Shown here: piece after piece, positions 16,684-31,892 of the stretch
Layout of the letters: every line of letters starts with the position of its first letter
Position numbering within the stretch: the stretch's first letter is position 1
Origin: Elusimicrobiota bacterium
GTDB taxonomy: Bacteria > Elusimicrobiota > Elusimicrobia > Elusimicrobiales > UBA9959
Length of the DNA stretch: 32,915 bases
Assembly: GCA_012517235.1 (NCBI GenBank)
Contig: JAAYVI010000119.1
Span: 1-32,915 of the forward strand
Direction of reading: 5' to 3'
Program-made: the position numbers and the translations under genes
Notes under the pieces: generated by a model
What the model saw: the letters and a program-made list of their open reading frames with translations, nothing else
Database searches by the model: none
What the model was told of the DNA's origin: nothing

Positions 16684-17880
16684 TCAGTAGGTTATGCCGT
16701 ATGTCAAGCCGAAAGAACTTCCCGTATAGTTATAAGGCATATAAGCTTCAAATTTATTGTTTGAAGAAGCTTTTGTTATAGAGTAAAAAAGCCTTACATA
16801 AGCGACTTCGTTTATCATTTTTCTTAAGCTGACGGTAGCCGTACTGAAAGTATTTGTTTGTTTTTTACCGGCCATGTATTCGTTATTTTCGTCTCTGGGA
16901 GGGCGGGAGTCGTATGTTCTTTTGGAAGTACTTAAAGAACCGCCTATGGCCCATTTGCTGGTTATATTTAAATCCAAAGGAACTATAAAAGACATTTCTT
17001 TATAGCTGTAAGCGTTTCTAACGGGATACGGATTAGTATCGGTAGCCGATTTATACCTTATGAAATTTTGATTGGATTTATGTTTGGTATAAACAAGAGA
17101 AGGATAAAGTTCGAAAATCCAAAGTTTTTGCTTCATTCCTATGTCCAAAGAAGTATCGGTATCTTTCTGTTTGGTATTTCCGTAAACTCCGCTTAATTCT
17201 ATTACTTTTTGCTTTTTATAATTTTGAGTAGTATAAGATATCCCGCCGAAAAATTTCATCCATGAAGGTCTGAGAGAATACTGAGTCATATTCTGATCGT
17301 ATAATCCGCCCCCGACTTCGGCCGCCGCGCCCGGATTTTGAAACTCGTTAAGCAAGTCGGTATAATTTGGAAATTCTATCTTTCTCGAAAGTAAAGAAGC
17401 CGTGGCATATCCCTCTCTGTCTTTGTCGAAAGTATAGTCCAAAGAAAGTTGTCCGCCTTTATTATTGCTGTTATAAAGCCCGTTCTTCCAGGACTCATTG
17501 GTACCGCTTCTTCTGTATCCTTTTCCGAAATTAAAAGCCGGCCTGATTCTTAAGACCTCGCTTATATTGTATCTGTATTCCAGATTGAAAGAATGGTCCA
17601 TAGTCCTTTCGGTAAACTGCTTGGTATCCTGAGGATTAAATCCCGGGCCCGAGTAATTAAATCCGTATAAAACGAAAATTCCGTGTTTTTCGGCCGGCGT
17701 AACAAGAAAGCCCGCCTTGGTATCTATAACGGAACCGGAAAATATGTTTCCGTTAGAAGGAAGATATCCGGCCTGCGTCAAACTCATATCGAAATAAGGA
17801 GTAAACACCTTTGAATTTTCCGGCGCGGCCGCATATATGTTTAAAACCGAAACAAGCAATATAAAGAAAGTCTTATTCAT
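16684..17880 (-). CDS. Predicted outer-membrane beta-barrel protein
   Basis: A 398-residue protein of no family I recognise. The N-terminal signal peptide (KTFFILLVSVLNIYAAA, cut near residue 19) is followed by many short alternating hydrophobic/polar strands rich in Tyr, Gly, Ser and Asn. The protein ends in an aromatic C-terminal strand (GSSFGLTYGITY). This matches proteins folded by the Bam complex. No enzyme motif is seen. The ATG has AAGGAG eight bases upstream and lies nine bases after the previous gene, so it is probably the last gene of the fecR unit. It could be a transporter or structural porin; substrate unknown. Confidence 0.65.
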   Translation of the reverse strand: MNKTFFILLVSVLNIYAAAPENSKVFTPYFDMSLTQAGYLPSNGNIFSGSVIDTKAGFLVTPAEKHGIFVLYGFNYSGPGFNPQDTKQFTERTMDHSFNLEYRYNISEVLRIRPAFNFGKGYRRSGTNESWKNGLYNSNNKGGQLSLDYTFDKDREGYATASLLSRKIEFPNYTDLLNEFQNPGAAAEVGGGLYDQNMTQYSLRPSWMKFFGGISYTTQNYKKQKVIELSGVYGNTKQKDTDTSLDIGMKQKLWIFELYPSLVYTKHKSNQNFIRYKSATDTNPYPVRNAYSYKEMSFIVPLDLNITSKWAIGGSLSTSKRTYDSRPPRDENNEYMAGKKQTNTFSTATVSLRKMINEVAYVRLFYSITKASSNNKFEAYMPYNYTGSSFGLTYGITY

Positions 17881-17889
17881 GATTTCTCC

Positions 17890-18627
17890 TTAAAAGTTTA
17901 AATGAAAATTCCATACCGGGTGGAAAACCAAAACGCCTTCCGGATATATGTTAAGGCCGACCTCGAACCATTTTCCGTACCAGCTTACTTTCGAAGTTAT
18001 CACATTTTCGTTTAGTCCGTAATTAAGCTGCAAACTCCAATACTTATTGGTTTTCTTCAATGTCTCTATGCCTACTATAAGAAAATCGTCTTCAAATCCG
18101 GTGTCAAAACTATTTATTTTAACTCCCAAAAGTTCCGGCTCGCTTCCGGCGGCAAAACTTAATTTGGCATTAAGTCTGGAATGCTTATATCCGTAGAAAG
18201 TTCTTATTTTAGGAGTTACCGACGAGGCGAGTAAAAAACCGTAATAGTGTCCGTTAAATTTAGCGTCCGTTATATCGTCGCTCTGATTTGCGGCGACCTG
18301 CGCCAAAACCATATTTTGATATCCGCCGATAATATCTATCTGAGGAACTCCAGGGGCCCATCTTCCTTCTTTATGAAGGCTTAATTTCGCCGAACCGTTG
18401 GCATATCCCATAGGCAAAAGAGAAGGAAAAAGACCGGTCTGGATTCCGAAAGTTTTGCCCGGAGGCAAAGGAGAAGTGGCTTCCAAATCCTGCTGAAAAT
18501 CGTAAAAGAAGGCGGCCGGATTTGCAACTATTTCCCCCACCATTTCCATTCCTTTAGATTCCCAGTCTATGGCAAAGGAAAAATTATACGGCAAGCATAA
18601 AAATAGAAACAGAATTATTTTTTTCAT
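17890..18627 (-). CDS. Exported protein, probable small beta-barrel
   Basis: A 245-residue protein of unknown function. The signal peptide is KKIILFLFLCLPYNFSFA. The mature part is rich in Gly, Tyr, Phe and Asn with strand-like segments (FLIVGIETLKK, YWSLQLNYGLNENVI, FEVGLNIYPEGVLVF) and ends WNFHLNF. A C-terminal Phe is typical of outer-membrane barrels. I chose the ATG at 18627 because GAGGAAG lies directly upstream. The ATG at 18639 (12 bases earlier, overlapping the fecR stop as TAATG) has no SD but would be coupled. It lies between the FecR-domain gene and another barrel gene. Confidence 0.6.
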   Translation of the reverse strand: MKKIILFLFLCLPYNFSFAIDWESKGMEMVGEIVANPAAFFYDFQQDLEATSPLPPGKTFGIQTGLFPSLLPMGYANGSAKLSLHKEGRWAPGVPQIDIIGGYQNMVLAQVAANQSDDITDAKFNGHYYGFLLASSVTPKIRTFYGYKHSRLNAKLSFAAGSEPELLGVKINSFDTGFEDDFLIVGIETLKKTNKYWSLQLNYGLNENVITSKVSWYGKWFEVGLNIYPEGVLVFHPVWNFHLNF

Positions 18628-18638
18628 TTTCTTCCTCA

Positions 18639-20417
18639 TTAATTTTTAAGATTATTTAAAGCGGGCAAAACTTTTTGAATTCCCGCCAGAGCCAAGTCGG
18701 GTATTATTACCAAATCTATATTCGAACTTCCGGTAAAATAATCCGTATTTTTTATGGAGCTTCTTACATTTGAAGTAATAAGAGCGGACCAACCTCCCGG
18801 CACGGCGGAAGAATCAAATTCTTTAAAATAAATTATGCTTTCTCCCGCGCTTTCTTTTAGAAGAGAGAATATGTCGTTTCCGGCATTTACGAAATCATTT
18901 TTTCCTCTTATCGAACCGCCGTTGGAAATCACATAATTTTCTCTGGCATACCATACCAAATTAGAGTTATCCAAGAAATTTCCACCTTTGGCGTATAAAT
19001 CCGCATTGACTTGGTAAAGCAAATCCTGGCTTTCTCCGGTTTTTTCATAGTAATTGGTACAATAAGGAGTATGACAGGCCTGTACTTTGCTAAACCATGC
19101 TATATTTCCCGCATAAGCGGTATTATCCTTGTGATTTACTACTCCGTTTGCCGCACCTTTGAAATCATAGTTGATTATGTTAGATAAATCCTGGTAAGAG
19201 GCCAAAGTACCGGCTAACATAACATCTCTGTCTATAACTTCAAAATAATTTTCTCCGTTAGGTCCGGTTCCAGAAAAGACATAACCCAAAGCCGTTTCAT
19301 TATTTACCAGTTCGTCTCTTACGGAATCGTATTTATAAGCTTCGGCATTGAAAAAAATAGAAGAATCGTTTGTCCTATTTGCAAAAACAAAAGTAGCCCA
19401 ATTGGGATCTACGCTATTGGCATTAAAGAAAGAAGGCCATTCCGATATGCTTTGAGGAAGGTTTTTGTTAAAATTCATAGTAAAAACGGCCATATCGTAT
19501 CTATTGGTTATGCCTTGCGCGCCGTTATAAGCGAATTCGCTGTAAGGAGTAGCTTTATAATTGTAAACAGGCCTTTTAACCAAATTTAAAAACTGCAAAG
19601 TATCCGGAGAAGGCCTGAGTAAACGCTGATCCACTCTTACAAGATTGCCGTGTATATCCTTCAATGTTCTGCCGGCTTCTATATCCGATTCTCTGCCTTT
19701 ATAGGCAAAGTTTTTTACCATATTTTCCGTTTTTGAAGTTTGAGCGGCAAAATCTCTTATCTGCGCTCTTTCAAATTCTTTTCTGGCTATATCTTCAAAT
19801 CTTGCTTTATCGCTAAGTCCCGGATCCCATTTGGCCAAACCTTCCATTTCCATTTTTTTATCCATCATCATTTTTCTGGAAGGTTTGTCTTTTTCCTTTA
19901 TCGCTATATATTCCCCCTGCGATAAAGTAAATTCTTTGTCTCCTTTCAAAGGAGGAACCGCATAGGTCATCTTTACCGAACCGAAAAGGACCTGCAAATT
20001 CATTTTCCCTTCCATATCCGTTTCCAAAACAAGATCCGTTCCTCTTACAGCGCAAACGGCGGTAGGCGTTCTAAGTTCGTATTTCTCTTTTCTCATCAAA
20101 TGAGGTATCCTCGCCTTGATTTTTCCGAAAACCAGGCCCAAGCGGGTTATCAAATCTTTTTTTTGTTCGACTTCCAAAGCCGTATTTTCTCTCATCCATA
20201 CCGTAGATTTATTGCCGGTATCCAAAACGGCCATACCGTTAATTCCGGTCTTAACCGCGCCTCCTTCGGGGACAATGGTCGAATTTTGAGCGTCCTGCCA
20301 GTCGGCGTTTACGGAATCTCTGTATTTCACTTCGCCTTCCATTTTAAGTATTTTCACTTCCGCCGCAAAAACAGACGCGCAATAAAAAATAAAAGTCAAA
20401 AAAAGTATTTTTTTCAT
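18639..20417 (-). CDS. Exported FecR-domain protein
   Basis: A 592-residue protein. The signal peptide (KKILFLTFIFYCASVFAA) is followed by a FecR-like beta domain (about 20-170) with GEVKYRDSVNADWQ, VPEGGAVKTGINGMAVLDTG, an ELRTPTAVCAVRGTD core and the VLFGSVKMTY strand. This is the stand-alone periplasmic form, not the sigma-factor regulator, since no inner-membrane anchor or anti-sigma segment is seen. The remaining 400 residues are unrecognised, with many Asn/Tyr/Ser residues and a CHTPYC pair. I chose the ATG at 20417, which has an AGGGAG SD. The TTG at 20468 would overlap the promoter. It heads a three-gene unit with two barrel-like proteins. Confidence 0.75.
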   Translation of the reverse strand: MKKILFLTFIFYCASVFAAEVKILKMEGEVKYRDSVNADWQDAQNSTIVPEGGAVKTGINGMAVLDTGNKSTVWMRENTALEVEQKKDLITRLGLVFGKIKARIPHLMRKEKYELRTPTAVCAVRGTDLVLETDMEGKMNLQVLFGSVKMTYAVPPLKGDKEFTLSQGEYIAIKEKDKPSRKMMMDKKMEMEGLAKWDPGLSDKARFEDIARKEFERAQIRDFAAQTSKTENMVKNFAYKGRESDIEAGRTLKDIHGNLVRVDQRLLRPSPDTLQFLNLVKRPVYNYKATPYSEFAYNGAQGITNRYDMAVFTMNFNKNLPQSISEWPSFFNANSVDPNWATFVFANRTNDSSIFFNAEAYKYDSVRDELVNNETALGYVFSGTGPNGENYFEVIDRDVMLAGTLASYQDLSNIINYDFKGAANGVVNHKDNTAYAGNIAWFSKVQACHTPYCTNYYEKTGESQDLLYQVNADLYAKGGNFLDNSNLVWYARENYVISNGGSIRGKNDFVNAGNDIFSLLKESAGESIIYFKEFDSSAVPGGWSALITSNVRSSIKNTDYFTGSSNIDLVIIPDLALAGIQKVLPALNNLKN

Positions 20418-20444
20418 AAATTCTCCCTGCTTACCGCTTTTGAA

Positions 20445-20473
20445 ATGATAATATAAAAAACCGCCCAAGTCAA
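20445..20473 (-). promoter_or_regulatory. Sigma-70-type promoter of the FecR/barrel unit
   Basis: Minus strand: -35 TTGACT (20468-20473), 17-base spacer and -10 TATCAT (20445-20450), each five of six to consensus. The start site falls about 20 bases before the FecR-domain ATG. This argues that the three genes to the left form a unit that can be transcribed apart from the peptidase-barrel gene. Confidence 0.55.
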
Positions 20474-20494: not shown

Positions 20495-23284
20495 CTAAAA
20501 CAGCGGACCCAAGTAAAAATAAAATAATTTTTCGCCGTCTTTGGTCCTTACGGCATAATCAAAGCTTAAAACCATCTGAAAACTTTGAAGCACAAACGTT
20601 CTAAAATCTACTCCTATGCCGACGGAATTTTTAATATCCGACATTTTAAAAGAAGAAATTTCCCTCTTATAGTCCCAGCCGTAGGCATTGTCGGAAAATA
20701 ATTTTAAATAAAAAGCCTTGAAATAGAAATCCGGGAAAAAATACCACATATGATAATCCATTTTACTTAAAAATATTCTCGCTTCCGCATTATAATTTAA
20801 CACTCTGCTATTTTCGTTTTCGTTCCCGTATCTTCTATAGCCTCTAAGTCCGTTTATTCCGCCGAAATCAAAATTTTTTCTGTCTCTTCCGGAAGAAAAA
20901 CCGCCGTAGAATCTGTTTATAAAAGGAGATTTTCTTGACAGAGGAAAATATTTTACATACTCTCCCTCCCAAACGTCGTACTTTTGATTTCCTCCCGCGG
21001 CTAAAAATCCTTTTTGAAAAGAAAGAGTTAATTTTGATCCGTATACGGCGGACAGGTAAAGTCCGTTTATGTCGTCCTTTATCCAAGACAATTGTAAAGC
21101 CCGGCTTTTATTCTTATCGTCGTATTTAAAAGGCAGAGAATATTTTTTTTCGTCGTCTTTTTGAATCAAATAAAATTCCGTTCTGCGGTACCTGTCGAAA
21201 GGATAAGACAAACCGGCCATGTTTCTGATATAAGATCTGTCATATTTATAATCTCCGTCTTTTATCGAACCGGCATAATATCTCGAATTCTGCAGAAAAT
21301 AGGACGTCCTATTGCCCGAATAAAGATAAGATATGTCGGAATTCCAATAAGGCCATGCGGAATTATAGTTTATGAAAAAAGAAAGATTATGTCTGCCTAA
21401 AAAATCCGAAAACTTCGAATAATTGGCCAGAAAAAGTCCTCCCGGTGAAGAAAACATCATAGCCGGATAAAAAAGGTCCAAGGAAGCTTTGAATTTGTAT
21501 TTTTTATCCTCCTTATTATTATCGGCTTCTCTTTTTTCGGTTTTCTCTTCTTTAGGCTCATAGTTTTTTATCTCGTTTTCATATTTGCCAAAGGAAGTAT
21601 TTTCCAAGATATAAATATCGGTTCTGCCTTTTGAAAAATACGAGAAAAAAACTTTATTTTCATATGCGTACGGTGTAAATACTCCGCCCGCAGGTTTAAA
21701 AATAATTTCGGATTTTCTATCGGAAAGATTCAAAGAAAAGAGCGAAAAAAGGCCTTCATATTCGGCGTTAAAATAAATTTTTCCGTCTATATAAAAAGAG
21801 TCCCATACCGAACCGTCCATAGAAACCAATACTTCTCTATCTCCTCCTGGTTTTCTCAAAACCAATGTCCTCGCATAACCGTCTTTTTTTTCTTCTTCTT
21901 GAGAAAAAATCAATTCTTCTTGCGATATATACGAAGGAGAAGACTGGTCCTTTTCGTCGTTTGTAAGATTTTTTGCCGAATCCAATAAGGGCAGCCCTTT
22001 TTCAAAGTCAAAAGAAATTTCATATATGTCGTTAAAGGTATCTTTCATCCCTACAAAAGCTATCTTGTCTTGCAAAGGAGAAAAGACGAATTGTCTTGCC
22101 TGCAGAAATCCTTTCATTTCAAATTTTGAAAATTTATCTTTAGATATGTCGTAAAGGCAAAGATATTCTCTGTTATTCTTTACGCCCGAAAATATCAAAT
22201 ATCTCCCGTCGGGAGAAATATCCAAAGACCTTACCGGTTTTGTAAATCTGGCATAAGGAATGTTTTCCACTCCCATAAAAGAATAATCCAAAATCTTTTT
22301 TTCCCCTTTTATGTCTACTACTATTATCGGAGGATGGCCTTTTTGAGTGGATATATAAGATAAAATTTTAGACGTCTTATTATATACCGGGCTCAAATTA
22401 AAATCCGGTATGTCGTCTTTGGCGAAAGTAAGCCGGGCCTTTTCTGGAGGGTCCGACAATTCTTCTTTTTCTTTTTGCAATGAAAATTTTAAATACTGAT
22501 ATTCTCTAAATTTCGAATCGAATTCCCAAATATCCGTTCCTATCAAAGGCTGTAAAACCGAATTTATATCGTACCTATTTTTATAAAGCCGCATCATCAT
22601 GGCCGGTTTGTCTTTTCCGTATTCTTGAGCCAAAAATCTTATCGCGGCCGCGCCCGTTTTATAAGCCAAAGTCGTTTGATGAGGCTTTAAATGCGAAAAT
22701 CCGTGCAATTTATAGAGATGAGGCAAGTTTCCGTTTAAAACTGCGTCTCTTACATACATATCTTCTATCGCCAAATCTTGAGGCCTGGCCGCATATTCCG
22801 ATATGCCTTCCATAAGCCAAAGAGGATAGACATATGTTTTTAGTATTCTCGCAGATTTCCAAAATCCGTCTATCATAATCGAAAATTGAACTTCGTGAGC
22901 AAATTCGTGGGTTATCACTTCCTCAAGCCAAGACTTAGAACCGTCCGACCAAACCATGAACCTATCTTTAAGCGGTTCCGTCAATCCCCCGACGCCGTCT
23001 GAAACTTGCGCCACGGTATTTTGAGCCATATGAAGAGAAGAAGCGTATAGGAAAAAAGGAATTCTTTTCTTAAGAGAAGGATTCAAATAATAAGATTGTT
23101 CTTTATATGCTTTTTCCAATACTTCGCAAACAAAATTAAGCCAAGGAGCGCTTTCTTCGTAATAATATATGTCAAAATGCGGCGTGCTTTTTATTTTCCA
23201 ATCGAAATCTTTTATTATTACTCTGTTTTGCGCAAAAATAAAAGAATTAAAAACAAAGATTAAACATAAAAAAAAATTCTTCAT
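20495..23284 (-). CDS. Peptidase-like, TolB-propeller, Omp85-like barrel fusion protein
   Basis: A 929-residue exported protein. A signal peptide (FFLCLIFVFNSFIFA) leads to a gluzincin-type domain with HEFAH at 126-130 (H126, E127, H130) and a glutamate ligand at E159 (WLMEGISEYAA). A TolB/WD40-like propeller follows (about 280-570, repeats such as LDISPDGRYLIFSG and FSPLQDKIAFVG). A charged linker (about 575-600) leads to a C-terminal barrel with GGINGLRGYRRYG (LRGY at 813-816), like the Omp85/BamA lid-lock motif, ending in Phe. No POTRA repeats are seen. It could cleave or process substrate proteins at the outer membrane. It follows the TPR gene by nine bases. Confidence 0.75.
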   Translation of the reverse strand: MKNFFLCLIFVFNSFIFAQNRVIIKDFDWKIKSTPHFDIYYYEESAPWLNFVCEVLEKAYKEQSYYLNPSLKKRIPFFLYASSLHMAQNTVAQVSDGVGGLTEPLKDRFMVWSDGSKSWLEEVITHEFAHEVQFSIMIDGFWKSARILKTYVYPLWLMEGISEYAARPQDLAIEDMYVRDAVLNGNLPHLYKLHGFSHLKPHQTTLAYKTGAAAIRFLAQEYGKDKPAMMMRLYKNRYDINSVLQPLIGTDIWEFDSKFREYQYLKFSLQKEKEELSDPPEKARLTFAKDDIPDFNLSPVYNKTSKILSYISTQKGHPPIIVVDIKGEKKILDYSFMGVENIPYARFTKPVRSLDISPDGRYLIFSGVKNNREYLCLYDISKDKFSKFEMKGFLQARQFVFSPLQDKIAFVGMKDTFNDIYEISFDFEKGLPLLDSAKNLTNDEKDQSSPSYISQEELIFSQEEEKKDGYARTLVLRKPGGDREVLVSMDGSVWDSFYIDGKIYFNAEYEGLFSLFSLNLSDRKSEIIFKPAGGVFTPYAYENKVFFSYFSKGRTDIYILENTSFGKYENEIKNYEPKEEKTEKREADNNKEDKKYKFKASLDLFYPAMMFSSPGGLFLANYSKFSDFLGRHNLSFFINYNSAWPYWNSDISYLYSGNRTSYFLQNSRYYAGSIKDGDYKYDRSYIRNMAGLSYPFDRYRRTEFYLIQKDDEKKYSLPFKYDDKNKSRALQLSWIKDDINGLYLSAVYGSKLTLSFQKGFLAAGGNQKYDVWEGEYVKYFPLSRKSPFINRFYGGFSSGRDRKNFDFGGINGLRGYRRYGNENENSRVLNYNAEARIFLSKMDYHMWYFFPDFYFKAFYLKLFSDNAYGWDYKREISSFKMSDIKNSVGIGVDFRTFVLQSFQMVLSFDYAVRTKDGEKLFYFYLGPLF

Positions 23285-23293
23285 TTTCCCCGC

Positions 23294-24175
23294 TTATTTT
23301 TTCTTAAAGGAAGAAGATATTTTTTTCTCCAGCCTAACCAAATTCTTTTTACCTTCTTCGTCGAGAAGACCCAGACTGTCGGATTCTTTCAAGGCGTTTA
23401 GAGCCGAAATATCGTCTTTTAAATTAACATAATCCTCATAAAGAATTCGAAGAGCTTCCGCTTTGTCGGGCAAATCGAAAACGCATTCCGAAGAAAAAGC
23501 ATTCTGTAAGGATACCTCGCTTTCTCTCCACAGTTTTTGAAAATTTTTTATATATCCGTCGATATAGTCGGCCCTGCAGGAAGACTCTTTTGACATCTTT
23601 TTCATTTCGAAAATAGTTTCGGAATAATCTCGATTGAGTTTCCACTTAGTCAAAGCGATATTTTCTAACAATACGGGATCTCTCATACCTTCGTTTTTCA
23701 AATTTTCAAAAATCTCCAGAGCTTTTGCGTAATTTTGTTTAAGATAATATGTTTTACCCAGGATCAAATATGTTTTTTTATCCGAAGGATTATTGTTTAA
23801 GTATTTTTCAAATTCGCCGACGGCATAGTCGTAAAATCCCAAATGAGAATAAATATTTCCCAAATACAAGAATATATTTTTTTCCAGATACCCCTTTTCT
23901 CTGGCCGTCTCCAAATCGGCCGCGGCGTCCGCCCAATATGAAACTCCCATATCGTATTTTAGACGCCCTCTTTCGAAAAGAGATTTTATATCGTTTTGAT
24001 TTTTTTCTATTTTCAAACTAAGCCGATTTAACTCGCGCAATCCTATTTCCGGAGGGATTTGTGTCTTTTCGGACAAACGATTTTTATAAAAAGCTACGGA
24101 CAAAAAAATTATTAAAGCCGCCGAAATTAAAATCGACGGCTTTAATAAATTAAATTTCTCCTTGATCGCCGGCAT
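23294..24175 (-). CDS. Membrane-anchored TPR-repeat protein
   Basis: A 293-residue protein with one N-terminal membrane helix (about 14-30, ILISAALIIFLSVAFY). A periplasmic helical part follows, with at least two recognisable TPR units (FLYLGNIYSHLGFYDYAVGEF and YLILGKTYYLKQNYAKALEIF, about 98-165) and weaker ones on either side. TPR proteins are scaffolds; the partner is unknown but may be the adjacent peptidase-barrel protein. The ATG at 24175 lies 26 bases inside rpsA, with GAGG nine bases upstream, so the two may be coupled. No later start is plausible. Confidence 0.72.
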   Translation of the reverse strand: MPAIKEKFNLLKPSILISAALIIFLSVAFYKNRLSEKTQIPPEIGLRELNRLSLKIEKNQNDIKSLFERGRLKYDMGVSYWADAAADLETAREKGYLEKNIFLYLGNIYSHLGFYDYAVGEFEKYLNNNPSDKKTYLILGKTYYLKQNYAKALEIFENLKNEGMRDPVLLENIALTKWKLNRDYSETIFEMKKMSKESSCRADYIDGYIKNFQKLWRESEVSLQNAFSSECVFDLPDKAEALRILYEDYVNLKDDISALNALKESDSLGLLDEEGKKNLVRLEKKISSSFKKK

Positions 24176-25337
24176 TATCGTCGGCCTCGGTAAGAATCTG
24201 GCCCAATGTAAGCTTAGGAGCGCCTTTAAGATATTGCTGAACTTTCTTTCTGTCTTCCATTTCTTGATAGCGCTTCATAGAAAGTTTAAGTTCATAGCTT
24301 TGAGGATTTACTCCCACGACTACCGCGTTAACCTCTTCGTCTTTTTGAGGAACGCCGTCATATCCGTAATCTGTTTCGGGAATAAATCCGTATATGTCGG
24401 AAGCGACATGAACCTTAAGACCGCCTTCGGCCGGACCTATTACTTTTACTCTAAGACTGGTTTTAAAAGGAAATTTTCTTTTAAGAAGATCCAGAGGATT
24501 GGGCATAGTTTGCTTTATGCCGAATACCAATTTTTGATTTTCCTTATCGGCTTTTAATATCTTAACCTTTATTCTCTGTCCTCTTTTATAAGACTTCAAA
24601 GCTTCCTGAGGGTCCTTCCATGCCACATCTGATAAGTTGACAAAACCTTCCATTCCCTGATATCTTACAAAAAGACCGGTATCTATTATTTTCGAGACAA
24701 CCACTCTCGTTACTTGTCCTTCCTTGGTCTGTCCCATTACTTCCTGTCTTCTGATCTTTTCGTCTTCTTCCAAAACCTGTCTTCTGGAAACTATAATTTT
24801 CCTGTTCTTGGCGTCCATATCGGTAACATAAAACTTAATCTTTGCGTTTACCGGCAAATAATGTTTGGGCGACCCGCCTAATTCGGATAAAGACAGAGGC
24901 ATAAAACCTCTGAGCCCCGATACGTCCACAATGTATCCGCCTTTAACCTGTTCCAATATTTTTCCTTTTATTCTTTCTTTGGCGGCAAAAGCCTTTTCCA
25001 GCCATTGCCATGAAATTTTTTCTTTGGCTTTTCTATGAGAAAGCACTGCATTTCTGTTTTCGTCGCCTCGTTTCTCCAAAACGGCCATTACCTCTTCGCC
25101 GGGCTGAGGAAGTTTCCCGTCAAATTCCGCAACCGGAATTATCGCTTCCTTTTTCTCACCTATGTCGGCAAAAACATATTCTGAATTTACTTCTACGACC
25201 TTCACTTGTATTATTTCTCTCGAATAAAGCTTCTCGCTTACTTCTCCCTGCTGGGACAAAAGCTGCTCCATGGACATTTCTTGTTCTTGTCCCGTTTGTT
25301 CTTCGGGTTTGGCGTTTTTTTCTTCCATATCGTTCAT
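24150..25337 (-). CDS. rpsA: Small ribosomal subunit protein bS1, four S1 domains
   Basis: A 395-residue RNA-binding protein that helps 30S subunits load mRNA. After an acidic leader (1-35) there are four S1/OB repeats. They lie at about 40-105 (EYVFADIGEKKEAIIPV), 120-188 (GYIVDVSGLRGFMPLS), 205-275 (DTGLFVRYQGMEGFVNLSDVAW) and 290-360 (GGLKVHVASDIYGFIPETD). Proteobacterial S1 has six, so this is a shorter type. Repeats 3 and 4 are followed by FGIKQ and LSMKRYQE, typical S1 inter-domain ends. An AAGGAG SD precedes the ATG. The cmk-plsC-rpsA order is a common bacterial cluster. Confidence 0.9.
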   Translation of the reverse strand: MNDMEEKNAKPEEQTGQEQEMSMEQLLSQQGEVSEKLYSREIIQVKVVEVNSEYVFADIGEKKEAIIPVAEFDGKLPQPGEEVMAVLEKRGDENRNAVLSHRKAKEKISWQWLEKAFAAKERIKGKILEQVKGGYIVDVSGLRGFMPLSLSELGGSPKHYLPVNAKIKFYVTDMDAKNRKIIVSRRQVLEEDEKIRRQEVMGQTKEGQVTRVVVSKIIDTGLFVRYQGMEGFVNLSDVAWKDPQEALKSYKRGQRIKVKILKADKENQKLVFGIKQTMPNPLDLLKRKFPFKTSLRVKVIGPAEGGLKVHVASDIYGFIPETDYGYDGVPQKDEEVNAVVVGVNPQSYELKLSMKRYQEMEDRKKVQQYLKGAPKLTLGQILTEADDNAGDQGEI

Positions 25338-25365
25338 ACTTTCTCCTTAAAAAAATAACTAAAAT

Positions 25366-25944
25366 TCATCCGCGGTTAAGCGAGAATATCTCTTGCATTA
25401 TGCGGCCGCTCGCTTCTTCGTAGTTTTGCGAGTCTTCGGCGGCCAAATTAAAAGGTTTGCCGAACACAATAATTATTTTACCTAATTTTGAGAAGTTTTC
25501 GGTATTAAAAATTCTAACCGGCAATATTTTAGCTTTTGACTTTAAAGCCAAAAAGGCCGCCCCGCCCTTGGGGTCCACCTTTTTACCCGCGGCTCTGGTA
25601 CCTTCGGGGAATATGGCCAAACATCCGCCTCCTTTCAAAACTTTCAAAGAATTTTTTATAGCCGACAAATCTCCCCCCGGAGCTTTTCTGTCTACAGGTA
25701 TGGCCCCGAAATGAGAAAAAGCGGTTCCTAAAATTTTCGGAGAAAATAATTCTTTTTTGGCCAATATATGAGCTTTTCTTTTAAGAGACAGAAAAGACAT
25801 GAGAACCGGAGGGTCGGCATTGGAGTTATGATTGCATGCGGCCAATAAAGGACCTTCTTTTGGGATATTTTCCAAACCCAAAACTTCTATCCTGTAAAAA
25901 ATTCTGAAAAAAATTCTAAGTATTAAAAGAACGGCGAATCTCAT
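25366..25944 (-). CDS. plsC: 1-acyl-sn-glycerol-3-phosphate acyltransferase
   Basis: A 192-residue membrane-associated acyltransferase making phosphatidic acid from lysophosphatidic acid. The N-terminal hydrophobic stretch (RFAVLLILRIFFRIFYRI) is followed by the catalytic NHNSNADPPVL motif (HX4D form) at about 34-44. HFGAIPVDRK lies in the glycerophosphate-binding part and FPEGTRA in motif III. It overlaps cmk by four bases (ATGA). Length is short but normal for bacterial PlsC. Confidence 0.9.
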   Translation of the reverse strand: MRFAVLLILRIFFRIFYRIEVLGLENIPKEGPLLAACNHNSNADPPVLMSFLSLKRKAHILAKKELFSPKILGTAFSHFGAIPVDRKAPGGDLSAIKNSLKVLKGGGCLAIFPEGTRAAGKKVDPKGGAAFLALKSKAKILPVRIFNTENFSKLGKIIIVFGKPFNLAAEDSQNYEEASGRIMQEIFSLNRG

Positions 25945-26624
25945 TTCCCTTCCGTAACGGAAAAAAAAGCTTTAAGCATAACAGAACAAACTTCTTCTCT
26001 TGTCATATTTGTAGAATCTATATAAACCGCGTCTCGAGCTTTTTTAAGAGGATTATGAGCTCTTTTCGAATCCTGTTCGTCTCTGGATATTATCATAGCC
26101 AGTATTTCTTCGTAGTCGGCTTTTAGCCCGGCTTTATTAAGCTGATAAACCCGTCTTTTTGCTCTCGCTTGAGCGGAAGCGTCCAAATAAAATTTTAAAG
26201 GCGCGTCGGGAAAAACATTCGTTCCTATGTCTCTGCCTTCCATTACTATGCCGCCCGCGGAGCCTATTTCTCTTTGTTTTTTTACCAAGAACTCTCTGAC
26301 CGAAAAAAGCCTTGCCACCGAACTTGTGGCTTTTCCTATTTTTTCGTCCGTCAATTCCGAATCCAAAGGCCGTCCGTCCAAATATAAAACCGGCTCGGGA
26401 CCGCCCGAGGATTTAAACTCCCAAAACGAAGAAGACGCAAGTTTTAAAAGTTCGCTTTCATTATCGGGAGAAATACCTTTTTCCAAAGCTTTAAAGGCCA
26501 AAGCCCTGTACATTTTTCCGCTGCTTATAAATTTATAATTTATTTTGGAAGCAAAATCTTTGCCGACGCTCGATTTGCCGACTCCGGCCGGGCCGTCTAT
26601 GGCGATTACTATTTTAGAACTCAT
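25941..26624 (-). CDS. cmk: Cytidylate kinase
   Basis: A 227-residue P-loop kinase that phosphorylates CMP and dCMP. The P-loop AIDGPAGVGKSSVGKDFA is at about 8-25, then the CMP-binding SSGKMYRALAFKAL, the VMEGRDIGTNVFPDA motif and the lid/HNPL region (RDEQDSKRAHNPLKKA). DAVYIDSTNMTREEV near the end is typical. It overlaps both neighbours by four bases (dnk stop and plsC start), so the three genes are translated together. Confidence 0.95.
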   Translation of the reverse strand: MSSKIVIAIDGPAGVGKSSVGKDFASKINYKFISSGKMYRALAFKALEKGISPDNESELLKLASSSFWEFKSSGGPEPVLYLDGRPLDSELTDEKIGKATSSVARLFSVREFLVKKQREIGSAGGIVMEGRDIGTNVFPDAPLKFYLDASAQARAKRRVYQLNKAGLKADYEEILAMIISRDEQDSKRAHNPLKKARDAVYIDSTNMTREEVCSVMLKAFFSVTEGK

Positions 26625-27340
26625 TTCGCCGCCGATAATGTTTTGGGGATATTATCCGCGTTTTCAATCCCGAGTTTTCTTAGCGGCCTTACCCATTTTG
26701 TAAAATTGGAAGGTCTGAGAGAATATTCGTGAACCAAACGAACCACTTCCGAAACGGGTTTATAAGTTTCCCAGTTTATTCTTAAAACCCTGACTCCGGC
26801 GTCTTCCATTTCTTCTATGAATTGATAGTAATTTTCCTGCAGGCTCTTAAGATATTCCGGAGAAATGGTTCTTTCCATTTCTCTTCCTCTCATCTTTATT
26901 CTGGAAATGGCGGTTTCGACGCTGCAGTCTAAAAAAATCATAAGCTGAGGAAAAACCAGTTCTCTTAAAACCATATTGTCGAATAAATCCAAATAAGTAT
27001 TGTAATCCAAATCGCTTATAAGCTTGTCGGGATGCTGATTGAGCATTCTGGCAAAAATCGTGTCTTCCCATATGGTTCTATCTTGAACCACTCCTCTTAT
27101 CTTTCCCAAACTTATCCTCGAAACAAATTCTCTGTGCTGGCGAAACCTATGATTTAACAGCCATACCTGCATTATCGTCCCGTATTTTTTCATATCAGCA
27201 TAAAATTTTGCCAAATACGGATTGCCGCCGACCTCTTCCAAAACCGGTTCGAAATTAAGAGCTTTCGCAAGTTCCATTGTCAAAGTAGATTTCCCAACGC
27301 CTATTATTCCGGCTATGCCTATGTATCCTTCGGCAAACAT
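26621..27340 (-). CDS. Deoxynucleoside kinase (deoxyadenosine/deoxyguanosine type)
   Basis: A 239-residue kinase of the dNK/dCK/dGK family that salvages deoxynucleosides. The P-loop is GIAGIIGVGKSTL (about 8-20). The substrate-pocket EEVGGNPYLAKFYAD, the WLLNHRFRQH segment and VVQDRTIWEDTIFA (DR motif) follow. The lid has an arginine-rich stretch (SRIKMRGREMERTIS). The ATG has GGAGG four bases upstream. The gene lies upstream of cmk, so salvage of dCMP-type products and their second phosphorylation are encoded together. The base preference cannot be read from motifs. Confidence 0.87.
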   Translation of the reverse strand: MFAEGYIGIAGIIGVGKSTLTMELAKALNFEPVLEEVGGNPYLAKFYADMKKYGTIMQVWLLNHRFRQHREFVSRISLGKIRGVVQDRTIWEDTIFARMLNQHPDKLISDLDYNTYLDLFDNMVLRELVFPQLMIFLDCSVETAISRIKMRGREMERTISPEYLKSLQENYYQFIEEMEDAGVRVLRINWETYKPVSEVVRLVHEYSLRPSNFTKWVRPLRKLGIENADNIPKTLSAAK

Positions 27341-27469
27341 AAATCCTCCGCGCCAAAAAGCGCCAGCTATAAATTTTAAAAATCAGAGATTTAAACGCTC
27401 TTTCGGAATTTTAACTTTCAAAAGGGCTTAAAATAATTTAACAAAATTTTTGAAACTTAAAAAAGAACT

Positions 27470-28558
27470 TTATTTCTTGGTATCTATGTCCTGTTCTACG
27501 CCTTTTATCGCCAAAAGCACGTCGTCGGGATTACTGGCCGCGCTTACGACATCTTCGAGCTTGGCCATACCTTGTTTATATATGTTTACCAAAGACTGAT
27601 TAAAAGTCTGCATGCCGTAATATGCGCCTTTGGATATGGCCTGCGCTACGGCGTCCATATTGTTTTCCGCTATCATTTTCTTTATATGCGGAGTATTTAT
27701 CATTATTTCGACCGCGGGAAGACGGCCGCCCTTAGAAGAAAGTATCAATCTTTGAGAAATTATTCCTCTTAAAGTTTCCGACAGCTGCATTCTGACTTGA
27801 GTCTGCTGATGAGGAGGATAAAGATCTATTATTCTGGATATGGTCTGAACGGCGTTCAAAGTATGCATCGTGGCAAAAACCAAATGTCCGGTTTCGGCCG
27901 CTGTAATGGCGGCTTTTGTAGTTTCCAAATCTCTCATTTCGCCTACCATAATTACGTCGGGATCCTGGCGCATGGCGCCTCTTAAGGCGTCGACAAAACC
28001 GTTGGTATCGAAACCTATTTCTCTTTGGCTTATTACGCTTTTTTTATCTTCAAAAGTGAATTCTACCGGATCTTCTATGGTTATTATGTGCGATTGCCAG
28101 CTTTGATTTAGATATTCTATCATCGCGGCCAATGTGGAAGATTTTCCCGAACCGGTAATACCCGTGACAAGTATTAATCCTCTTTCGTTCAAAAGAAGTT
28201 TTTTTATGGACTCCGCCGGAAGTTTTAGATCCGAAAAATTGGGTATTTTGAAAGGTATATGCCTTATGGCTATGGCCGGACGGCCTTTTTGAGTAAAATA
28301 GTTTAATCTAAATCTGCCCAAATCCTTTACTTCGTGAGAAAAATCGACTTCCTTATTTTCTTTTAAAATCGATTTATGTCTCTCGGTTAAAAGAGGTTCC
28401 GCCAAAGCGGCCACCTCGGAAGATGTCATAACGGAAGAGTTTATCGCCGTAAGTTCTCCGTCTAGCCTTAAATATACCGGGCCGTCGCCTCTGACATGCA
28501 GATCGCTGGCATTATTCTTTATCATCAATCTTAAAAGCAAATCCAATGTTATTGCCAT
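27470..28558 (-). CDS. pilT: Type IV pilus retraction ATPase (PilT/PilU family)
   Basis: A 362-residue hexameric ATPase that pulls in type IV pili. The N-terminal PAS-like domain has ASDLHVRGDGPVYLRLDGEL. The ATPase core carries Walker A GITGSGKSSTLAAM (about 135-148), the Asp box IITIEDPVEF, Walker B with GEMRD and the His box TMHTLNAVQT. The PilT AIRNLIRE motif near the C-terminus is changed (TPHIKKMIAEN), so it could be a PilU-like paralogue. It begins two bases after the ftsZ stop, without a clear SD, so it is probably coupled to ftsZ. Confidence 0.9.
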   Translation of the reverse strand: MAITLDLLLRLMIKNNASDLHVRGDGPVYLRLDGELTAINSSVMTSSEVAALAEPLLTERHKSILKENKEVDFSHEVKDLGRFRLNYFTQKGRPAIAIRHIPFKIPNFSDLKLPAESIKKLLLNERGLILVTGITGSGKSSTLAAMIEYLNQSWQSHIITIEDPVEFTFEDKKSVISQREIGFDTNGFVDALRGAMRQDPDVIMVGEMRDLETTKAAITAAETGHLVFATMHTLNAVQTISRIIDLYPPHQQTQVRMQLSETLRGIISQRLILSSKGGRLPAVEIMINTPHIKKMIAENNMDAVAQAISKGAYYGMQTFNQSLVNIYKQGMAKLEDVVSAASNPDDVLLAIKGVEQDIDTKK

Positions 28559-28560
28559 AT

Positions 28561-29646
28561 TTAATCCAATATTCTCGGTTTTCTAAGATTTTTGTTCCTG
28601 TACGAGTTATAAGATACGGCCGCAGGTTCCGGTTTTCTTAATATTCCGGTCCTAATAGGACGCGAATGAACCGAAGAAAAAGGCAAAGACGAAAATCCGG
28701 TAGCTATGACCGTAACCGCAAAAATCCCGTCTTTTTCTTCCTCCTTCGTATCCAAATAAACTCGTCCGAATTTTATTTTTACATTGTCGTTGCTTATCGC
28801 TTTTCTCACATATCCGGCGGTTTCCTCAAATTCTAAAAGTTTAAAATCGCTTTTTTCGGCGCTCATATGAACTATAAGTCCGGTTGCGTCTTCTATATTC
28901 GAATTTTCAAGAAGAGGAGATCTTAAAGCCTCTTCCACCGCTTTTATATGTCTTTGTTCGCCGGATTTCCTTCCTATTCCTATTAAAGCGTTTCCGGAGT
29001 TTTTCATTATGGACTTTATGTCTTGGAAATCTACGTTCATTTCTCCCGGAACATATATTACGTCGGTTATTCCCTTTATGGCATATTTGAGAACATTATT
29101 CGGACCGGCAAAAGCGTCGTCTATACTGGCTTCGGGCGGAAAGCATTCGGAAATTTTGGAATTGGGAACTACTATCATAGAGTCGGTATATTTTTTCATT
29201 TCCTCTATTCCGGCTTCGGCCACTTCCATCTTGGCTTTCCCTTCATAAGCAAAAGGTTTTGTAACTACTCCGACTATCAATATGTCTTTGTTTTTTTCTC
29301 TGGCTATTCTCGCCACCTCTGGCGCGGCTCCCGTTCCCGTTCCGCCGCCCATTCCGGCGGTTATGAAAATCATATCGGCGTCGCAAACCATCTGAGCTAT
29401 GTCTTCGGCCGATTCCTGAGCGGCTGCCTTTCCTTTCTCGGGATCGCCGCCCACTCCCAACCCTTTGGTTATTTTTTCGCCTATGGTAAATTTTATCGGA
29501 GCTCTATTTTTGGTAAGAGCCTGTATGTCCGTATTTACGGCTATAAATTCTATATTTTTTATTTTTTCGCTCGCCATAAAGCTTACGGCATTACCGCCCC
29601 CGCCGCCTACGCCTATGACTTTTATTTTAGCTTCGTTCTCTATCAT
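28561..29646 (-). CDS. ftsZ: Cell division protein FtsZ
   Basis: A 361-residue tubulin-like GTPase that forms the division ring. N-terminal IKVIGVGGGGGNAVSFM is followed by the tubulin signature GGGTGTGAAPEVA (about 100-112) and PNSKISECF. The T7-loop region reads VDFQDIKSIM. The C-terminal linker is short and the tail reads RNKNLRKPRILD, without the usual D-[IT]PxFLR peptide. I start at the ATG at 29646, which has GAGGTGA upstream. A GTG two codons earlier is also open. It lies two bases after the ftsA stop. Confidence 0.95.
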   Translation of the reverse strand: MIENEAKIKVIGVGGGGGNAVSFMASEKIKNIEFIAVNTDIQALTKNRAPIKFTIGEKITKGLGVGGDPEKGKAAAQESAEDIAQMVCDADMIFITAGMGGGTGTGAAPEVARIAREKNKDILIVGVVTKPFAYEGKAKMEVAEAGIEEMKKYTDSMIVVPNSKISECFPPEASIDDAFAGPNNVLKYAIKGITDVIYVPGEMNVDFQDIKSIMKNSGNALIGIGRKSGEQRHIKAVEEALRSPLLENSNIEDATGLIVHMSAEKSDFKLLEFEETAGYVRKAISNDNVKIKFGRVYLDTKEEEKDGIFAVTVIATGFSSLPFSSVHSRPIRTGILRKPEPAAVSYNSYRNKNLRKPRILD

Positions 29647-29648
29647 AA

Positions 29649-30917
29649 TCACCTCAAAAGTTCTTTAACCACAGAAATCCATCTTTTAATCGGACCGTAT
29701 TTTTTCTTTGCAGGCTCAAATTCGTTCTTATCTCTTATCAAAATAGGATAAGACGCGCAGGCTATGGCGGAAAAATATTTCTGATGATGAGCGGATTCGT
29801 CTTCTACTATAAAAAGTTCCGGATTTAATGTTCCCAGCCTTGTCTCGTTTATTCCAAAAAATCTCGTTACGGCTTCGGGCATTCCTTTAAGCAAAGCTCC
29901 GCCGCCGGTAATTACCGCATTATTTATATATGCCAGAGGAGGTTCTTCCGTCGGCGTCTGCTGAGTTTCAAACTCCGCCTTAACGGCTTGAAGCATATCT
30001 TCAAGTCCCGGCAATATTATGTCTTTAAGTTCGGCTATATGAACTCTTTTTTTTCTTATATCGTCCATAGCCGTCACTTCCGCGGTTTCCGGAAACTGTT
30101 GATCTTTGACCGCCGCAGAAAGAGCAAAGCCGTATTTTTCCTTTAGCGTTCTTGCGGAAGCGGAAGATATTGTGAAGTGATTGGATATGTCGAAAGTTAT
30201 TGAATCCATTCCTATGGGCAATTCCTTTGAAAAAAATATTTTCCCTTTTTTATATGCGGCCAAAGAAGTCGTTTCCGCTCCGAAATCTATCAATAAAGTT
30301 CCTATCTTCTTTTCTTCTTCGCTTAGAATCATTTCTCCGAGCGGATATAAATGATATATGGTTTCATTATGAGGAAATCCGGATAAAGCCACGACATGAC
30401 TTATATTGTTTATGTCGCAAACGGAAGTATGAATTATATGCGCTTTTACGCCCAATGGGGTACCTTCGTGTCCTATGGGATTTTCATAGCCGGTTTTTTT
30501 ATTTATTGAAAACTCTTGGGGAATTACGTGTATTATTTCTCTGTCTTCTTTTATATGCAAAGCTTTTGCGTTTTCTATTACGTTATAAACGTCTTCTATA
30601 TTTATCTCTTTGTCGGTTCTTATTATATTGCATATTCCTTCGTTATTTACGGACTGAACAGACTCTCCTCTTATTCCCACATTTATTTCATGCATATTCC
30701 CGGGAGCTATTTTTTCCTCTATTTCTTCCATAACGGAAGCTACCGCATCGGAAACTTTTTTTATATCCATCACTATGCCTCTTTCGAGACCTTTTGGCAA
30801 TTCTATCGATGCGGCGGCTTTTATTTTTATCCTTCCGCCCCCGTCTTCGCAAACGGCCGCGGCGCTTACCGAACGGCTTCCCATATCCAAACCTACCAAA
30901 TAATTTTCTTTAGCCAT
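29649..30917 (-). CDS. ftsA: Cell division protein FtsA
   Basis: A 422-residue actin-like protein that tethers FtsZ to the membrane. The N-terminal phosphate-1 loop is VGLDMGSRSVSAAAV. The SHS2-type domain has HVIPQEFSINKKTG, phosphate 2 is LLIDFGAETTSLAAY, and the adenosine loop is AVITGGGALLKGM. The C-terminus is positively charged and amphipathic (KKYGPIKRWISVVKELLR), matching the FtsA membrane-targeting helix. A GGAG SD precedes the ATG. Confidence 0.95.
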   Translation of the reverse strand: MAKENYLVGLDMGSRSVSAAAVCEDGGGRIKIKAAASIELPKGLERGIVMDIKKVSDAVASVMEEIEEKIAPGNMHEINVGIRGESVQSVNNEGICNIIRTDKEINIEDVYNVIENAKALHIKEDREIIHVIPQEFSINKKTGYENPIGHEGTPLGVKAHIIHTSVCDINNISHVVALSGFPHNETIYHLYPLGEMILSEEEKKIGTLLIDFGAETTSLAAYKKGKIFFSKELPIGMDSITFDISNHFTISSASARTLKEKYGFALSAAVKDQQFPETAEVTAMDDIRKKRVHIAELKDIILPGLEDMLQAVKAEFETQQTPTEEPPLAYINNAVITGGGALLKGMPEAVTRFFGINETRLGTLNPELFIVEDESAHHQKYFSAIACASYPILIRDKNEFEPAKKKYGPIKRWISVVKELLR

Positions 30918-30962
30918 ATATTCTCCGCGAAAAGCAGAAAAAAGATTTTAAAAAAAAGGAAA

Positions 30963-30980
30963 TCACGTCACCTCATGTCA
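30963..30980 (-). promoter_or_regulatory. Tandem 8-bp operator-like repeat upstream of ftsA
   Basis: The plus strand reads TCACGTCA-CC-TCATGTCA: two copies of TCAYGTCA, ten bases apart start to start, about one DNA helical turn. Each copy is itself close to palindromic (TGACGTCA-like). It lies between the candidate ftsA promoter and the ftsA ATG. The protein that binds, if any, is not known. Confidence 0.45.
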
Positions 30981-31009
30981 AAATAGGCTCAAAAGCTTAT
31001 TTAAGGAAT

Positions 31010-31038
31010 ATTTTATATTAAAAAATAAAAAATAACAA
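31010..31038 (-). promoter_or_regulatory. Candidate promoter of ftsA-ftsZ-pilT
   Basis: Minus strand: -35 TTGTTA (31033-31038, four of six), 17-base spacer and -10 TAAAAT (31010-31015, five of six). This would leave a leader of roughly 85 bases in front of ftsA, containing the TCAYGTCA pair. The region between ftsQ and ftsA (192 bases) is very AT-rich, so chance matches are likely. Confidence 0.35.
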
Positions 31039-31084
31039 ATAAGTAAGCGAGATAAGAATAATGTAAAAAATATGAAGTCGTAAA

Positions 31085-31099
31085 GACAGAGGATCTGTC
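31085..31099 (-). terminator. Small hairpin after the ftsQ-like gene
   Basis: GACAGA and TCTGTC form a 6-bp stem with a three-base loop, 11 bases past the ftsQ stop. It is followed on the minus strand by TTTACGACTTCATATTTTTT, a split T-tract. It is at best a weak terminator separating ftsQ from ftsA. Confidence 0.35.
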
Positions 31100-31109
31100 G
31101 ATCGGATGA

Positions 31110-31892
31110 TTAATTGGATTTTCTTTGTGAAATTATAATTTTACCGTTTTCAAAAAATCTCAAGTCGGCTTTGTAAGGACCTTCGCTCTTATTTTTCAAA
31201 TCTTCAAAAACCGTTTTAAGCTTCTTCAATTTCTCTTGCGTAAATTCATATCCGCCCCAATCGGCCACGCTGCCGTCGGAAAATTCGACCCTGGGGCTCG
31301 AGTTCGCGCCTTCGTAGAAAAGCGTCTTCACGTAGAATCCTTCATTCTCGGATATTTTTTTTATATCTTCGACAAAAGCCGCAAAAGAGGCGTCGAATCG
31401 GCAATCTTTTTTGCAGGATACTTCCAAAAAATCTCCTTTCTCATAAGGATTTTCCGCCACGCGGCCGGATCTTAGAATAAAAGAATACTCTGATTCTTTT
31501 ATCTTGGCGCAAGGTTTTTCTTCTTTTCCTTTTATGGATAAAGTTCCGGTTAATGGATTATGTTTTATTTCCAATCCTCCTATGAAAGGTTTCTCTTTTA
31601 AAAAGTATTCCCTTATATTTTTTTCCAAAGAAGAAGAGTATTTCATACCCGCCAAACCGGAAAAAGTCTTTTTAATCTCGGCATCCAAAAAATTATTGCC
31701 CAGGTCGGCCTTAACGGAACTTATATTTTCTTTTGAAAAATTTACGGTTTTTGAAAAACTTTTTTTAACCGAGCCGTAAAAAGAAGGAGCTGCGGCCGAA
31801 ATGCCGGCAAAAATAAGAATAAGAATCGCCTTTACCGCCATTTCTTTTTTCTTTTTAAATCTCAGTTTTGGTTTATATTTTCTTCTTGTCAT
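31110..31892 (-). CDS. Probable divergent FtsQ/DivIB-type division protein
   Basis: A 260-residue bitopic membrane protein. A Lys/Arg-rich cytoplasmic head (TRRKYKPKLRFKKKK) precedes one membrane helix (about 20-37), then a periplasmic part. A POTRA-like segment (SSLEKNIREYFLKEKPFIGGLEIK, about 85-130) leads to a C-terminal domain with VADWGGYEFTQEKLKKLKTVFEDLK and YKADLRFFENGKIII. The last pattern resembles the FtsQ stretch where a sequence-independent loop sets the spacing of DLR-like residues. It sits directly upstream of ftsA, the usual ftsQ place. Cysteines C127 and two in SCKKDC are unusual. The identity rests on position and architecture more than on sequence. Confidence 0.65.
   Translation of the reverse strand: MTRRKYKPKLRFKKKKEMAVKAILILIFAGISAAAPSFYGSVKKSFSKTVNFSKENISSVKADLGNNFLDAEIKKTFSGLAGMKYSSSLEKNIREYFLKEKPFIGGLEIKHNPLTGTLSIKGKEEKPCAKIKESEYSFILRSGRVAENPYEKGDFLEVSCKKDCRFDASFAAFVEDIKKISENEGFYVKTLFYEGANSSPRVEFSDGSVADWGGYEFTQEKLKKLKTVFEDLKNKSEGPYKADLRFFENGKIIISQRKSN

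Follow-up and report, generated by a model that had tools for sequence, protein, structure and literature searches.

How a zinc-peptidase motif, a β-propeller, and an outer-membrane barrel come to be joined in a single polypeptide, and on which side of the membrane such an enzyme might act, is the question raised by a gene on the reverse strand (20495..23284) of a contig from an Elusimicrobiota bacterium (JAAYVI010000119.1 of assembly GCA_012517235.1; the 32,915 nucleotides analyzed are referred to here as the window). A first-pass annotation had described the product as a single 929-residue polypeptide with HEFAH at residues 126-130, a glutamate at 159, and LRGY at 813-816, all of which are present, and had proposed that it could be a cell-surface protease or a secretion/processing pore. 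In the open reading frame and its AlphaFold model (pLDDT 90.5 and pTM 0.89 for the full protein), a gluzincin peptidase domain, a β-propeller, and an Omp85 barrel follow a short segment, residues ~1-19 (MKNFFLCLIFVFNSFIFAQ; 23228..23284), that looks from its sequence like a signal peptide, is modeled with low pLDDT over residues 1-17, and would direct export of the protein.

The order of peptidase, propeller, and barrel given in that annotation is supported by matches to Pfam family PF13485, by PD40/TolB profile matches, and by the 16 strands of the modeled barrel. The HMM search that it had suggested succeeded in part when made with the query alone, as PF13485 (Peptidase_MA_2) exceeded its cut-off (E 2.6e-8), but PD40 was weak (E 0.17) and the barrel model PF01103 was without a match. 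Among relatives, PF13485 was matched by all scanned family members (36/36 and 67/67), PD40 by 32 of 36, and PF01103 by 15 of 36. An artefact of frame or of assembly fusion was considered and rejected; among 149 good Elusimicrobiota genomes (completeness at least 90%), strong matches (E < 1e-80 with the peptidase profile) occur in 47, every one in an open reading frame of 922-1116 amino acids, so that chance or assembly fusion is ruled out by the recurrence of full-length copies.

The N-terminal domain (residues ~28-273; 22466..23203, reverse strand) is supported by sequence and model as a gluzincin-type zinc peptidase for which zinc binding and proteolysis are predicted. The predicted zinc ligands H126, H130, and E159 and the predicted catalytic residue E127 are unvarying in alignments of 36 and of 68 relatives, and for a protein of this composition chance alone would supply only ~0.008 HExxH motifs. 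In the model, the three ligands sit on the expected two helices, with E159 on the second, as the gluzincin assignment calls for. Modeled alone, the domain (pLDDT 88) finds gluzincin-type metallopeptidases in the PDB with Foldseek, the matches listed including lugdulysin (M30), collagenases G and H (M9), leukotriene A4 hydrolase, and M1/M61 aminopeptidases; in a profile comparison with collagenase G, the glutamate of DEGTAEF that serves there as the third ligand falls on E159, the glutamate of MEGISEY. Y208, which lies 81 residues past the catalytic glutamate and is unvarying in the 68 relatives, is a plausible counterpart of the gluzincin catalytic tyrosine. The domain thus shares its fold and its HExxH motif with downstream glutamate with collagenase G, lugdulysin, and Peptidase_MA_2 proteins, but those are free enzymes without a membrane barrel. 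Three further Peptidase_MA_2 loci, likewise lacking a barrel, are found in the same genome (G000:C92, C109, and C52), one of them with an in-frame stop.

The peptidase domain is followed by a six-bladed β-propeller of the TolB/PD40 type (residues ~295-561; 21602..22402, reverse strand), to which the profile of the family and comparison of structures both point. Over residues 297-522 the profile of the family matches structures of TolB at 2e-20, and the structures nearest to the modeled propeller are those of TolB, with TolB-Pal complexes among the matches. Between propeller and barrel lies a charged, low-complexity linker (residues 566-598; 21491..21589, reverse strand) that is modeled with low confidence, appears flexible, and holds no POTRA domain.

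Residues 600-929 (20498..21487, reverse strand) form the C-terminal barrel, for which the model gives exactly 16 strands; the lack of a 16-strand barrel, which the first-pass annotation had named as grounds for refutation, is thus not borne out. Judged by profiles and by the predicted fold, the barrel belongs to the Omp85/TpsB superfamily and is homologous to those of BamA and TamA. Residues 610-929 align with Elusimicrobiota BamA at E 5e-16 when profile is compared with profile, and the best structural matches are to TamA (2.8e-11; barrel-only TMt 0.70) and also to BamA. The RGY motif lies, as in BamA and TamA, in the long loop that joins strand 11 to strand 12 (loop 6, residues 799-826), and this (V/I/L)RG(Y/F) motif is conserved, with R814 present in 67 and G815 in 65 of 68 relatives. 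The chain closes with a C-terminal β-signal ending in F929. Of the outer loops, L6 has 28 residues and L7 has 14, while all others have only 2-8.

The POTRA domains that characterize BamA and TamA are missing, and the model of the 929-residue protein contains none, which bears out one claim of the earlier reading; its companion statement, that Omp85 proteins normally carry such domains, overlooks the WD40-Omp85 and noNterm classes (PMC4104836). These are among the ten classes of the Omp85/TpsB superfamily distinguished by Heinz and Lithgow in 2014, which also include a Metallo class based on PF00149 (PMC4104836). The WD40-Omp85 class, in which a propeller is combined with a barrel without POTRA domains, is uncharacterized, and no peptidase domain is described for it there (PMC4104836). 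The 929-residue protein, which is assigned by domain description, meets the WD40-Omp85 description in that a TolB-like propeller directly precedes an Omp85 barrel with no POTRA between, but differs in the gluzincin domain ahead of the propeller; it extends a known but uncharacterized class by a true metallopeptidase. The Metallo class offers no closer precedent, for PF00149, which we take to be a family of calcineurin-like phosphoesterases and not of proteases, is not reported before the barrel here, where PF13485 is found instead.

Other systems resemble the protein in part. PlpD and the patatin-Omp85 proteins likewise carry an enzyme domain ahead of their Omp85 barrel (PMC11116518), but PlpD is a lipase with one POTRA domain and no propeller, and the protein considered here has neither a patatin domain nor a POTRA. 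BepA, an M48 enzyme, shares an HExxH peptidase with glutamate as third ligand, proximity to an Omp85 barrel, and the involvement of tetratricopeptide repeats (TPR) (PMC8423444), but is a separate soluble protein of another peptidase family with its own TPR domain and no propeller. A protein of the Salinibacter ruber plasmid pSR116 (WP_118831798.1, annotated as a "basic secretory protein-like protein"; L159, 5935-7836) has a peptidase-like N terminus and a PD40 propeller, yet at 633 residues has no barrel. No description of the peptidase-propeller-Omp85 combination was found in the open-access literature. The non-POTRA Omp85 classes, listed in 2014, are still mostly uncharacterized, and the fusion offers a testable hypothesis, that of a protease permanently tethered to the inner face of the outer membrane, which would probe whether Omp85 barrels act as anchors for enzymes as well as insertases, a use to which PlpD already points.

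In Omp85 barrels with an even number of strands, the N terminus lies on the periplasmic side, so that with 16 strands the peptidase and propeller would be predicted to face the periplasm. Together with the shortness of all outer loops but L6 and L7, this argues against the surface location proposed at first, as does PlpD, whose lipase domain, long thought to be surface-exposed, was shown by experiment to stay in the periplasm; its dimer, too, is experimental (PMC11116518). A second precedent is BepA, a TPR-containing HExxH peptidase whose activity at the BAM complex is directed at LptD and BamA (PMC8423444). From the topology, the short loops, and these two precedents, we therefore propose, with a probability of roughly one half, that the protein works as a zinc endopeptidase in the periplasm, is held in the outer membrane by the Omp85 barrel of the same chain, and trims or degrades envelope proteins; such a role in periplasmic processing or quality control fits better than a secretion/processing pore. 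The barrel would be inserted by BAM through its C-terminal β-signal, leaving the gluzincin domain and the propeller in the periplasm, where the propeller may provide a site at which Pal-, Tam-, or Bam-like proteins or the adjacent TPR protein dock, or perhaps a mere spacer, and the peptidase might act on envelope proteins that reach the barrel, as BepA does at BamA.

The genomic context bears on this proposal from both sides. Directly upstream on the same strand is a conserved gene (23294..24175) for a TPR protein that has a single hydrophobic segment in its N-terminal part, and the stop codon of this gene precedes the start codon of the peptidase gene by ~10 nucleotides; this fits one operon, in which the two genes likely lie, and by analogy with BepA and its TPR domain the neighbor may favor a periplasmic peptidase. 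Beyond it lies a conserved housekeeping cluster, also on the reverse strand (24150..26624), of cmk, plsC, and a gene for an S1-domain protein (rpsA-like). Among the 63 named loci that extend far enough upstream, the S1-domain gene is found just upstream in 62, plsC in 52, and cmk in 52, a conserved order that suggests largely vertical inheritance within the phylum. Against the periplasmic reading, the TPR gene is recognized in only 43 of the 63, the occurrence of the protein does not parallel that of TamB, and secretion of enzyme domains was held possible by Heinz and Lithgow (PMC4104836).

A less likely alternative is that the protein is a second insertase of outer-membrane proteins, similar to TamA or BamA, with the propeller and the peptidase domain taking the place of POTRA domains as substrate-binding modules and proteolysis being secondary. 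The nearness of the barrel to TamA and BamA and the conserved RGY/F motif of L6 are as such a role would lead one to expect, and the WD40-Omp85 class was itself likened to a BamA-BamB fusion (PMC4104836). On the other hand, a domain used only for binding would have no need to keep every catalytic residue invariant, as is the case here, and nearly all of these genomes also encode a canonical POTRA-bearing BamA. POTRA (PF07244) matches exceed the cut-off in 147 of the 149, and a sister species carries a BamA of 796 residues; the lack of any such match at E <= 0.001 in the genome of the window itself, despite an estimated completeness of 97%, is thus most likely a gap in what is an incomplete metagenome-assembled genome (MAG). 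Replacement of BamA by the 929-residue protein was rejected on the same grounds, since with a canonical BamA alongside it would be an additional Omp85 protein and not a substitute. A role as TamA, considered through co-occurrence with TamB, is also unsupported, as the presence of the protein does not follow that of TamB. The sole PF01103 match in the genome of the window is to a 424-residue barrel protein with a signal peptide and no N-terminal domain, of the noNterm type (G000:C52; L164, 3369-4643).

More ambitious, and rather unlikely, is the idea of a single-chain station for outer-membrane assembly and quality control that is present in much of the Elusimicrobiota, in which a barrel allowing lateral entry, a docking propeller like BamB or TolB, and a protease like BepA would act together.

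Export in the manner of type Vd systems, in which the barrel would carry the N-terminal peptidase and propeller of its own chain outward to act as a surface protease in nutrition or attack, seems quite unlikely. The nearest folds do include the secreted proteases collagenase G and lugdulysin, and the distribution of the protein, which has no strong match among the genomes sampled from families f2 and f11 and is present in many others, might suit an enzyme used in foraging. The barrel, however, lacks a POTRA domain that could feed it, passage of a folded two-domain region of 540 residues through a 16-strand barrel is improbable, and the prototype, PlpD, retains its enzyme domain on the periplasmic side (PMC11116518). 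The loci, moreover, adjoin housekeeping genes in 62 of 63 cases and not an accessory region.

Very unlikely is a division-site peptidase for peptidoglycan- or Tol-Pal-linked proteins whose propeller binds Pal, for although that propeller is TolB-like and the operon comes after ftsQ-ftsA-ftsZ in many loci, resemblance to TolB is common to most PD40 propellers, the genome has a separate TolB-like propeller gene (G000:C12), and the fts linkage is confined to part of the phylum. In the window, ftsQ, ftsA, ftsZ, pilT, and a deoxynucleoside kinase gene (26621-31892) lie upstream of the cmk-plsC-S1-TPR-peptidase series, an arrangement conserved in part of the class. Directly downstream (16684-20468) are genes for a FecR-domain protein and for two predicted outer-membrane or secreted proteins, all three conserved only within the genus.

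The protein is matched in 52 of 59 genomes of its own family, nearly all of them strongly and several with the gene split across contigs. Relatives in genome contigs were found by an alignment-based search and not by a single-sequence search; viral contigs yielded none, and plasmids only the barrel-less Salinibacter protein and one weak propeller match. Among the best 80 of 508 relatives, nearly all are named as Elusimicrobiota, a few as "bacterium" and one as "Clostridia". Proteins annotated as PD40/BamA-TamA are known outside this phylum as well. On one contig of 184,798 bases (JAJAPZ010000001.1; L143 and L144), two copies of the gene lie at positions that mirror each other exactly, which points to an inverted duplicate created during assembly.
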